Shown: one piece after another, positions 1,189-41,169 of the stretch | Numbering within the stretch: position 1 is the stretch's first letter | Layout: each line of letters begins with the position of its first letter | Assembly (NCBI GenBank): GCA_012799605.1 | Contig: JAAZKX010000022.1 | Location: forward strand, 1-51,797 | Length of the DNA: 51,797 nucleotides | Direction of reading: 5' to 3' | DNA from: Bacillota bacterium | GTDB taxonomy: Bacteria > Bacillota > DTU030 > DUMP01 | Position numbers and translations under genes: made by a program | Notes under the pieces: generated by a model | Seen by the model: only the letters and a program-made list of their open reading frames with translations | Databases searched by the model: none | Told to the model about the DNA's origin: nothing

Positions 1189-1914
1189 ATGAAGCTGTAC
1201 TGCTGTGGTTTGATTGTGCGTCTGGCAATAATAAGGGTGTTGGAGTTTGTAGGCTATAGGCGCCGCGCTGTTTGGTATGTAGGATCCAGTGAAGCTTTGC
1301 CGCCTCCTCTTAGCCGGACGGAAGAGGTATATTTATTGGATCGACTGCAAGGCGGCGATAAGGCTGTACGCAGCCTATTGATCGAACATAATTTGCGGCT
1401 GGTCGTTTATATCGCGCGAAAATTTGAAAACACCGGTGTCGGAATTGAAGATTTGGTTTCTATTGGCAGTATAGGACTGATAAAAGCTGTTAATACTTTT
1501 AATCCGGCAAAAAAAATTAAACTGGCTACTTATGCATCCCGTTGTGTAGAAAATGAAATTTTAATGTTTTTACGTCGGAACAATAAACTTCGGGTTGAGG
1601 TGTCTTTTGACGAGCCATTAAATATTGACTGGGATGGAAACGAGCTCTTATTATCGGATATTTTAGGTACTGATAGGGATATCATTTCCCGCCGCGTGGA
1701 AGAAGATGTGGAGAAAAAATTGTTACATCAAGCTTTAAACCGTTTGGCCCCTAGGGAAAGGCTTATCGTAGAGCAGCGTTTTGGTTTAAGTGGTGAACCG
1801 AAAAAAACACAAAAAGAAGTAGCTGATTTGCTGGGAATTTCGCAATCATATATATCACGGTTAGAAAAAAGGATTTTAAAGCGGCTTCGTCGTGAAATTA
1901 AGCGGCTGGAATAA
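1189..1914 (+). CDS. sigE: RNA polymerase sporulation sigma factor, pro-sigma-E
   Basis: This is the mother-cell sigma factor, made as an inactive precursor (241 aa). The first ~29 residues form a hydrophobic pro-sequence, followed by [11 protein letters not shown], which matches the start of mature sigma-E. Region 2 ([32 protein letters not shown]) and the region 4 helix-turn-helix ([18 protein letters not shown]) are nearly identical to the Bacillus protein. ATG at 1189 has AAGGAGAGG six bases upstream. The TTG at 1183 is too close to that SD. It is probably co-transcribed with spoIIGA, its processing protease. Confidence 0.97.
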
Positions 1915-39495: not shown

Positions 39496-40131
39496 ATGGA
39501 AGCGGTCATAGTAGCTGCGGGCGAGCTGGACACCAGCTTCCAGACTTATTTAAATGCAGCTAAACTTATAATCGCCGCCGATGGAGGCGGCGATTATCTG
39601 CTAAAATTAGGTATTGTTCCTAAGGTAGTAATAGGTGACTTCGATTCTATCAGCCCTGAAGCAGTGGCCAAGTTTAAAACAAGCGGCAGCAAGCTAATAC
39701 AGGTTGAGCGAGAAAAAGATGAAACTGATACCGAACTTGCAGTCCAATATGCCCTTCGGTGTGGCGTTCGCGATATTGTTATATTAGGTGCGCTGGGGGG
39801 GCGGCTCGATCACACCTTGGCTAATCTAATTTTGCTGGCCCGACTGGCAAAAGATGGGATAAGGGCCAGAGCCGCTACCCCGTCCTTAACCGTTCATGCA
39901 GTAACCGGCCAGCTGGTAATCAGTGGTAATGCGGGAGAACTGGTGTCTGTTTTCCCTTTCCAAGGACCAGCTAAAGGGGTGACAGAAACAGGGTTTAAGT
40001 ATTCGTTAAAAGATGCTGACTTGGACCCATTTGCTGTGGTTGGTATCAGTAATGAGCTAGCTGGGCCGCAAGGGGTTATTCAGGTAAAGAAGGGTGTACT
40101 TTTGGTTTTTCATTACCATAGTTGTAGGTAG
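39496..40131 (+). CDS. thiN: Thiamine diphosphokinase
   Basis: ThiN makes thiamine diphosphate from thiamine and ATP. The 211-aa protein has ADGGGDYLLKLGIVPKVVIG, GDFDSISPEA, EREKDETDTELAVQYAL and LGALGGRLDHTLANL, the conserved TPK catalytic blocks. The ATG follows the rpe stop by one base. It is the last gene of the long plus-strand train and is followed by terminators. Confidence 0.94.
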   Translation: MEAVIVAAGELDTSFQTYLNAAKLIIAADGGGDYLLKLGIVPKVVIGDFDSISPEAVAKFKTSGSKLIQVEREKDETDTELAVQYALRCGVRDIVILGALGGRLDHTLANLILLARLAKDGIRARAATPSLTVHAVTGQLVISGNAGELVSVFPFQGPAKGVTETGFKYSLKDADLDPFAVVGISNELAGPQGVIQVKKGVLLVFHYHSCR

Positions 40132-40256
40132 CGATAAATTTTATTAATGGGTCGAGGCCACTTGTTTCAAAGTGCCGTAGTCAAATTACAGATAATATAC
40201 CGGCTCTAGCATAAAGTTTGAGCCCAAACAAATCGATATTCGGACCATAAGGGCGA

Positions 40257-40296
40257 AGACGGCCGCTAGTTGTTGCTAGTGGCTGTCTTAATTTTT
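40257..40296 (+). terminator. Terminator at the end of the gmk-thiN gene train
   Basis: A 13-bp stem pairs AGACGGCCGCTAG (40257-40269) with CTAGTGGCTGTCT (40276-40288), counting two G-T pairs, loop TTGTTG, followed by TAATTTTT. The 40132-40256 stretch before it holds two small stem candidates (GGCCACTT/AAGTGCC near 40156-40177; GGCTC/GAGCC at 40202-40224) and no gene I can support. Confidence 0.85.
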
Positions 40297-40323: not shown

Positions 40324-40404
40324 GATTAGGGTCAAAACCAGGTCGGGAAGAATATAATAAAGCAAAGTTAAATCAGGTACAGGGATAGAGGGGGTGTGCC
40401 AGGG

Positions 40405-40566
40405 ATGAGGCGCCGGGCGCGATTTTGGCGGAGAAATTTTGGGGGAATTATTGCTGTCGGTGGGGCCATCATCTTTGCCCTAGCTATCCCGCCATGGGCT
40501 TGGGGAATGTTATTGGGGCTTATGCTGATTGTTGTAGGTAGTTATTTATATGGTCGTTCCATTTGA
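40405..40566 (+). CDS. Small conserved-type membrane protein (53 aa) upstream of spoVM
   Basis: An ATG at 40405 behind GAGGGGGTG opens 53 codons. The N terminus is strongly basic (RRRARFWRRNFGG) and two hydrophobic stretches follow (IIAVGGAIIFALAI and MLLGLMLIVVGSYLYG) around PPWAWG. It is a two-helix or hairpin membrane protein. I do not recognise a named family. A TATAAT lies at 40353-40358 with no clear -35. Placement directly before spoVM suggests a role in or near spore envelope formation, by context only. Confidence 0.65.
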   Translation: MRRRARFWRRNFGGIIAVGGAIIFALAIPPWAWGMLLGLMLIVVGSYLYGRSI

Positions 40567-40612
40567 TTCCGTTGGTCTGGGGACAAAAACTATAGCAATA
40601 GGGGGAAAAGAT

Positions 40613-40696
40613 GTGCGTATTCATGTAGTCAAGTTGCCCAGGATTATCAGCAACATCCTTATCGGATTGCTGCGGACTTTTCGCCGCAGTGAATAG
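40613..40696 (+). CDS. spoVM: Stage V sporulation protein M (SpoVM), 27 aa
   Basis: SpoVM is a tiny amphipathic peptide that marks the convex forespore membrane and recruits SpoIVA for coat and cortex assembly. The frame from GTG 40613 encodes 27 residues: an N terminus with the hallmark KLPR (VVKLPRIISN) and a basic end (LLRTFRRSE), aligning without gaps to B. subtilis SpoVM (IKLPKFLGG, LGSFRKD). AGGGGG lies about eight bases upstream. In Bacillus spoVM also sits between thiN and rpmB, exactly as here. Too short for ordinary ORF calling. Confidence 0.88.
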   Translation: MRIHVVKLPRIISNILIGLLRTFRRSE

Positions 40697-40743: not shown

Positions 40744-40914
40744 GTGGGCGAGAGAGTTCTCTGTCAAACATCTGGGTTTCGTCTGGTTGATTCACAATAC
40801 CGGCGCCTAGTTCTGTACGAAGTCTTGCTGGCCGAGATAAATCAGCTGCTTAGCAAAATAGAAAGCGATGACGTCCAGCAAGTATACTACCGTCTTAAAG
40901 TTACCGGGAAATAA
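40744..40914 (+). CDS. Small hypothetical protein (56 aa) downstream of spoVM
   Basis: A GTG at 40744 preceded by AAGGGAGAG opens 56 codons ending inside a terminator loop. The product is soluble, with a predicted helix (LVLYEVLLAEINQLLSKIE) and a basic, tyrosine-containing end (VYYRLKVTGK). I do not recognise it. The good SD, and a terminator placed exactly at its stop, argue that it is a real last gene of the spoVM unit. Confidence 0.5.
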   Translation: MGERVLCQTSGFRLVDSQYRRLVLYEVLLAEINQLLSKIESDDVQQVYYRLKVTGK

Positions 40915-40927
40915 CGGTAACTTTTTT
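40899..40927 (+). terminator. Terminator of the spoVM micro-gene unit
   Basis: AGTTACCG (40899-40906) pairs perfectly with CGGTAACT (40915-40922), followed by T residues. The loop contains the stop codon of the 56-codon gene. Confidence 0.85.
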
Positions 40928-40949: not shown

Positions 40950-40978
40950 AAAAAAAAAAGCGCATCTGTAGCGCTTTT
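40950..40978 (-). terminator. Terminator of rpmB
   Basis: On the minus strand AAAAGCGC pairs with GCGCTTTT (plus-strand arms 40956-40963 and 40971-40978) and is followed by a run of T (complement of the A run at 40950-40959). It begins at the rpmB stop codon. Confidence 0.88.
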
Positions 40979-41169
40979 CACAGGGCACGTTCGACTTTGC
41001 CGGAACGAAGGCATCTGGTGCATACATAGACCCGCCGGGGGCTTTTTCCGTCGACTAGTATCCGCACCCGCTGCAAATTAGGTTTCCAGGCCCGTTTTGT
41101 TCGAATATGGGAATGGCTTACTTTCATTCCGGTCTGCCGTTTTTTGCCGCATATGGCACAAGCTTTCAT
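40978..41169 (-). CDS. rpmB: 50S ribosomal protein L28
   Basis: L28, 63 aa, begins [20 protein letters not shown] and carries KRAWKPNLQ and [13 protein letters not shown]. The two CxxC pairs form the zinc-ribbon (C+) version of L28. GGAGGT lies eight bases before the ATG on the minus strand. It is transcribed alone, opposite to its neighbours, as in Bacillus. Confidence 0.97.

Follow-up and report, generated by a model that had tools for sequence, protein, structure and literature searches.

In Bacillus subtilis, contact between SpoVM and SpoIVA involves Ile6 of the former and Gly486 of the latter, which is Asn in C. difficile, and Pro9, the only fully conserved residue of SpoVM, is needed for sensing positive curvature (accessible part of Ribis et al., 2017; PMC5607322). 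The same source describes the loss of SpoVM as very severe in B. subtilis and mild in C. difficile, where the peptide is largely dispensable. It also reports a transcript of C. difficile in which spoVM follows CD25622, a gene for a product of 50 residues whose function is unknown and which is thought to be limited to the Peptostreptococcaceae; insertions in CD25622 and in spoVM lead to the same modest defect, the former being probably polar on spoVM. Within the literature covered, which took in few of the subscription papers, this article was the only one to name CD25622, and we found neither another comparable gene nor a report of a general upstream partner of spoVM. As for the recognition of spoVM itself, Galperin et al. 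(2012; PMC3533761, accessible part) noted that genome annotation rarely recognizes SpoVM, listed 70 newly translated spoVM frames and asked whether distant versions of the peptide exist in those clostridia in which searches had failed.

The window, that is, the whole stretch of 51,797 nt analyzed here, corresponds to contig C71 of a genome that is 92.5% complete and comprises 89 contigs with a total of 1,568,925 bases. Its preliminary description placed in it a 27-codon spoVM with a GTG start, a KLP core and a basic end, in exact thiN–spoVM–rpmB synteny. The frame is present exactly as described, with the GTG at 40,613, the stop codon ending at 40,696 and the translation V/M-RIHVVKLPRIISNILIGLLRTFRRSE; KLP occupies residues 7–9 and the C-terminal part is indeed basic, though the last two residues are S-E. 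A frame of 27 codons would probably fall under the usual length limits of gene callers. The proposed synteny held for the two neighbors, both of which were confirmed by family models, but not for its exactness: one small conserved gene, designated here as up and down, respectively, lies on each side of spoVM, and the actual gene order is thiN – 40,405–40,566 – spoVM – 40,744–40,914 – rpmB. The features of the locus, together with a sigma factor gene located elsewhere in the window, are as follows:

1,231–1,908, plus strand: sigE (393.2 bits, over the family cut-off)
39,496–40,131, plus strand: thiN, thiamine diphosphokinase (TIGR01378, 174.1 bits), the upstream neighbor
40,256–40,289, plus strand: intrinsic terminator 3′ of thiN, 15 pairs and then AATTTTTAGG (z −5.88), which parts thiN from the three small genes
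40,327–40,359, plus strand: promoter-like block before up, AGGGTCA ... GAATATAAT
40,405–40,566, plus strand: up, unnamed gene of 53 codons directly 5′ of spoVM, predicted membrane hairpin
40,600–40,605, plus strand: Shine-Dalgarno-like AGGGGG, 7 nt 5′ of the spoVM GTG
40,613–40,696, plus strand: spoVM, 27 codons, GTG start and TAG stop, reading MRIHVVKLPRIISNILIGLLRTFRRSE
40,744–40,914, plus strand: down, unnamed gene of 56 codons 3′ of spoVM, soluble-looking protein
40,897–40,924, plus strand: intrinsic terminator, 10 pairs and then TTTATT (z −3.03), overlapping the end of down
40,978–41,169, minus strand: rpmB, ribosomal protein L28 (TIGR00009, 73 bits), the convergent downstream neighbor

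The wider neighborhood also contains rsgA, rpe, a gene for an Asp23 protein and yloV. Because terminators flank the three small genes, the arrangement suggests that up, spoVM and down form a single unit with spoVM in the middle. The GAATATAAT part of the promoter-like block is invariant in the seven genomes of family f1 that were aligned (7/7). A scan of the region preceding the hairpin gene in 54 loci (see below), with 10 shuffles each and with consensus strings that overlap one another, gave mean scores of 10.67 vs. 10.15 in the shuffled sequences for sigma E, 14.96 vs. 14.62 for sigma H, and 8.87 vs. 8.12 for sigma A; this slight enrichment is alike for the three and singles out no sigma type.

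Comparisons were made with 101 genomes (the source genome plus 100 relatives), 13 of which, G000 (the source genome) to G012, make up its class. The NCBIfam model SpoVM_broad (NF033436) aligned only to residues 1–16 of the peptide, with 19.1 bits (E = 0.00099) against a cut-off of 31 bits, and the source genome is absent from the rows reported in a whole-genome search with this model; the gene could thus be missed, as had been anticipated. SpoVM-type frames located by rpmB in further families score below 31 bits too, so this cut-off serves for naming and does not define SpoVM. At E ≤ 1, SpoVM_broad matched every aligned member of the class (11/11; best E = 5.5e-8), and a second SpoVM model, NF011327, matched seven of these 11. 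Searches of 177,635 distinct PDB sequences retrieved B. subtilis SpoVM (2mvh) as the sole match at E ≤ 10, both with the peptide alone (E = 0.16, weak by itself) and with the SpoVM profile of the class (E = 0.0093), while the same protein was retrieved at 9e-13 with a broader SpoVM profile (26 rows, one of them the window peptide). Using a length criterion of around 22–30 residues with Pro9, which puts a kink in the helix, we found 27 residues and Pro9 in the window peptide, as well as a predicted amphipathic cationic helix after Pro9. Additionally, it has the same net charge as 2mvh_A (+5) and nearly the same helical moment (0.60 vs. 0.59), a value reached by 201 of 10,000 shuffles. The Pfam search of the peptide returned no SpoVM row. 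Its only row was a coronavirus NS6 family (E = 0.066), which we discarded as a chance match. Judged by sequence and physical properties, the frame at 40,613–40,696 is a genuine, divergent spoVM that lies below the annotation threshold of the NCBI model, and its initial identification stands on the matches of all 11 class members to SpoVM_broad and on 2mvh being the sole PDB match of both peptide and class profile.

Using the peptide as a query, we found matches at E ≤ 0.1 in 13 of the 101 genomes, namely in 12 of the 13 of the class and in G089. The class genome with no spoVM match, G005, has no rpmB match either, so the region is not judgeable there; in turn, G007 contains spoVM twice, on the overlapping ends of two contigs, and we read the two copies as one gene. 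The orthologs keep the same start in 12 of the 13 class genomes, with AGGAGGG, AGGGGGG or a similar Shine-Dalgarno sequence at the equivalent place. Stops or frameshifts in relatives had been named beforehand as grounds for rejecting the frame, and there is no internal stop in any of the 14 matches. The gene rpmB is convergent and on the same contig in all class genomes having spoVM (12/12), and in the window it starts 282 nt past the spoVM stop; the 5′ side of the locus is occupied by thiN in family f1 and by rpe instead in family f2. In the class alignment (11 sequences; the twelfth, from G012, lies on the opposite strand of its contig and was read separately), residues M1, R2, V5, P9, L16, G18, and F23 are invariant. 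Position 6 is Val in the window, Phe in the two g6 genomes and Ile in the remaining eight. Gly13 is replaced by Ser solely in the window genome among the 11 aligned.

The preliminary description also held that the SpoVM/SpoIVA route is probably present in this lineage, and proposed a search for spoIVA. This search was positive: the genome contains a full-length spoIVA (G000:C62) scoring 748.6 bits against a cut-off of 459.9, and the gene was found in 89 of the 101 genomes. The seventh residue from the C-terminus of SpoIVA, which matches Gly486, is Gly in the 11 complete class sequences (11/11), including that of G000, which ends in GGLICIIL; the family model spans 492 positions, and the reading leaves out G007 as well as G012, whose sequence breaks off before this residue. 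Residue 6 of SpoVM, which in B. subtilis has to be Ile for SpoIVA binding, is Val in the window peptide, a conservative change that may or may not preserve the contact. SipL-type domains occur in 10 of the 13 class genomes, among them G000. Since spoIVA with the C-terminal Gly, sipL-type genes and sigE are all in the genome, the machinery for the SpoVM/SpoIVA route is present, and the proposal was borne out. Next to sigE there is a second sporulation-type sigma gene (1,231–2,750 for both, plus strand), which is consistent with the spoIIG/sigG arrangement. Because C. difficile largely manages without SpoVM, the presence of the peptide does not prove that it is needed.

At its cut-off, NF033436 detected SpoVM in just five of the 101 genomes though 89 have spoIVA, which shows that most of the divergent SpoVMs escape it. 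Its use as a genome-wide detector at E ≤ 0.1 (31/101 genomes) was rejected, because many of the low-scoring rows are chance matches (fragments within long frames or off any start), and SpoVM counts were for this reason taken from synteny. A pattern rule (P9, K/R2 and a Shine-Dalgarno sequence) applied around rpmB outside the class was passed by 22 of 86 loci on the right strand vs. five of 86 on the opposite strand, several of the 22 being clearly chance; at the same 86 loci, the SpoVM profile, which shares several sequences with them and is not independent, gave 15 matches at E ≤ 1.9e-8 plus a weak one. Shorter SpoVM-like frames of 21–22 residues (e.g., MRVYFIKLPGFVKNILRKVLKQ) were seen away from rpmB in several families (L037, L041, L053, L054, and similar loci). 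Synteny with rpmB finds distant versions of SpoVM, which bears on the question posed in the accessible part of Galperin et al. (2012; PMC3533761), and the window spoVM is one more frame of the kind listed there. For spoVM itself the value of this addition is modest, as it extends the SpoVM/SpoIVA coat base to one lineage in which the gene had not been annotated.

The genes flanking spoVM are conserved as well. Gene up is found in 10 of the 13 class genomes (pN/pS 0.27, 21 pairs), and down is intact in nine and broken in G011 (pN/pS 0.16, 15 pairs), with strong conservation in family f1 and part of f2; both are absent from the two g6 genomes, and G005 lacks the region. In G011 (L002, 1640–1793), down is split over two frames, from either decay or a sequence error. 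The two g6 genomes (G010 and G009; L009 and L011) have a spoVM with Phe6 and neither flanking gene, and might thereby offer a comparison provided by nature for judging what the hairpin gene does. Outside the class, down had no strong match in 299 genomes of the phylum, and its window copy had no Pfam match at E ≤ 0.1. No Pfam or NCBIfam family reached its cut-off with up, the weak rows being mostly generic membrane stretches. AlphaFold2, run on a 30-row profile of the hairpin family (A4), predicted two helices, 2–27 and 30–52, joined at Pro29-Pro30 (mean pLDDT 86.5, pTM 0.45), and a fold search with this model gave no matches in PDB or in BFVD (viral structures). The first 12 residues of the hairpin protein carry a charge of +6. 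According to the positive-inside rule, the positively charged end of a membrane protein stays cytosolic, and the N-terminus would therefore lie in the cytosol (that of the mother cell, if made there).

A profile built only with class members (A2, 10 rows) was run on the 299 phylum genomes and matched 48 of them at E ≤ 0.01, including 40 from outside the class with 42 matches. Among these 42, a convergent rpmB lies 40–298 nt downstream in 29, and a frame passing the SpoVM rule occurs within 100 nt in 27, vs. 89 of 4,000 random positions. Counting G139 and G168, which have spoVM with no rpmB nearby, 31 of the 42 matches are beside spoVM or rpmB, and every match at E ≤ 1e-5 is beside rpmB (21/21). 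The 11 matches away from both genes (G014, G028, G080, G084, G087, G145, G159, G202, G221, and one of the two each in G106 and G168) all have E > 1e-5 and are mostly in long frames. The wider profile A4 matched 82 of the 299 genomes and yielded 17 further loci (G202 being a repeat), with spoVM directly downstream in nine and not in eight; this tally covers the retrieved loci, the remaining A4 rows without adjacency falling largely within long frames. Altogether, 54 loci adjacent to spoVM or rpmB span 21 families, comprising f1 and f2 from the class and 19 others; in G006 the gap is 162 nt, beyond the 150-nt limit of this set. Two loci examined, which we take to be Paenibacillus-like from their type of SpoVM sequence, contain spoVM without the hairpin gene. 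Conversely, L178 (G257) has the hairpin gene by rpmB with no SpoVM match in between, and SpoIVA is present in this genome. In family f66 (L075, L221, and L172), the hairpin gene is followed by a frame that resembles spoVM but is extended at its N-terminus (MSKKKEPKIYYIRIPDFIKKFLSSFTKSKK and relatives), and that the SpoVM profile scores only weakly.

There is next to no chance that the frame is merely an open reading frame that happens to resemble SpoVM. Such a reading could appeal to its 27 codons, its GTG start, its failure at NCBI's curated cut-off and the 89 of 4,000 random positions that pass our loose SpoVM rule, but the same start and place are kept in 12 of the 13 class genomes with no stop, the PDB match is to SpoVM alone, and pN/pS is 0.35 in the spoVM frame vs. 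0.98 and 2.66 in the two shifted frames (55 pairs); comparison with relatives has thus already refuted it at the sequence level. We also find it very improbable that the gene encodes a real small amphipathic peptide other than SpoVM, for instance a leader or membrane-active peptide serving both neighbors. Pro9, charge and helical moment all agree with SpoVM, each search gave one SpoVM match in the genome and no second was found, and the peptide occupies the known place of spoVM by rpmB, a proximity stated as conserved in the accessible part of PMC5607322; these points weigh against the low identity to B. subtilis SpoVM (eight of 26 residues in an ungapped comparison with 2mvh_A) and the closeness of two conserved small genes, with which it seemingly forms one unit.

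The nature of up is less settled. It might encode an ordinary envelope hairpin of the LiaI/LiaF type, unrelated to sporulation and merely located between thiN and spoVM, a possibility that we consider real, if on the doubtful side. The kind of hairpin is generic, as six of the seven non-adjacent hairpin-profile matches tested coincide with LiaF-TM or LiaI-LiaF-like regions (E ≤ 0.01; the Pfam gathering score is exceeded in two), and since such membrane hairpins are common, the case for pairing rests more on position. In this respect, the 26-row SpoVM profile matched 91 of the 299 genomes, 81 of them outside the class, and the hairpin gene is directly upstream of spoVM in 37 of these 81 (both at E ≤ 0.01), which we take as the rate, with the caveat that both profiles were partly built from these loci. 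SpoVM starts −4 to 80 nt after the hairpin gene in 52 of the 54 loci, a figure that describes spacing and not an unbiased rate because the loci were chosen for adjacency to spoVM or rpmB. Additionally, spoIVA is present in all 44 genomes outside the class with an adjacent locus, vs. 250 of the 299 overall, although the related genomes are not independent and this co-occurrence is supporting only. The insertion phenotypes of C. difficile, identical for CD25622 and spoVM, would fit a hairpin with no role of its own, but the CD25622 insertion is described as probably polar on spoVM (PMC5607322, accessible part). On balance, we lean slightly toward a functional pair: in many anaerobic spore-formers, spoVM would be the 3′ member of a conserved gene pair rather than a lone gene, and the hairpin of 44–61 residues, encoded directly 5′ of it in 21 families, would cooperate with SpoVM on the outer forespore membrane, CD25622 being its C. 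difficile member.

Taken as a whole, the data are best explained, with a probability of roughly 0.96, by the frame being spoVM, the middle gene of a three-gene unit, with a product that would act in SpoIVA anchoring and with the hairpin as a putative helper. Counting against it are the sub-threshold NCBI score confined to residues 1–16, the weakness of the single-sequence PDB match, a Pfam search that gave no SpoVM row, the substitutions at positions 2 (Arg), 6 (Val) and 13 (Ser), and a promoter-like block that fits no single sigma type. The product is amphipathic and helical, has Pro as its ninth residue and, as in B. subtilis, may lie flat on the outer forespore membrane, on its mother-cell side, recognizing positive curvature, and may hold there the SpoIVA ATPase shell that is the base for the coat; by this analogy we infer mother-cell expression, curvature sensing and SpoIVA binding for the window SpoVM. 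The two-helix hairpin, which may be made together with SpoVM, could help to seat the peptide, or the lipids surrounding it, at the forespore membrane. The window spoVM is itself of a well-known kind, whereas the pairing of spoVM with an unnamed conserved hairpin gene, seen in many spore-former families, is unexpected. We consider that the hairpin gene matters more than spoVM: a conserved partner missing at both Paenibacillus-like loci would provide an explanation, open to testing, of why lineages differ in their need for SpoVM.

The window peptide shares with B. subtilis SpoVM (2mvh; NF033436/NF011327) its length, Met1, Lys7-Leu8-Pro9, Ile15, Leu20, Phe23, Arg24, and the adjacency to rpmB. It differs in having Arg2 for Lys2, Val6 for Ile6 and Ser13-Asn14 for Gly-Gly, as well as in its R-R-S-E end, its GTG start and the two small genes beside it. 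With the CD25622-spoVM pair of C. difficile, the locus has in common a small gene directly 5′ of spoVM (50 codons there, 53 here), the location of spoVM by rpmB and a SipL-type partner (PMC5607322, accessible part); CD25622, which its authors called unique to the Peptostreptococcaceae, is compared here with up by length and position only. The hairpin resembles the LiaI/LiaF-like domains (PF18917 and PF22570) in its two hydrophobic stretches and a short turn, often with Pro and Trp, and the weak cross-matches of its profile fall in LiaI/LiaF-like proteins. However, the 30 aligned hairpin members did not match those models at E ≤ 0.05 and, unlike the LiaI/LiaF-like proteins, they are just 44–61 residues long and are encoded beside spoVM.
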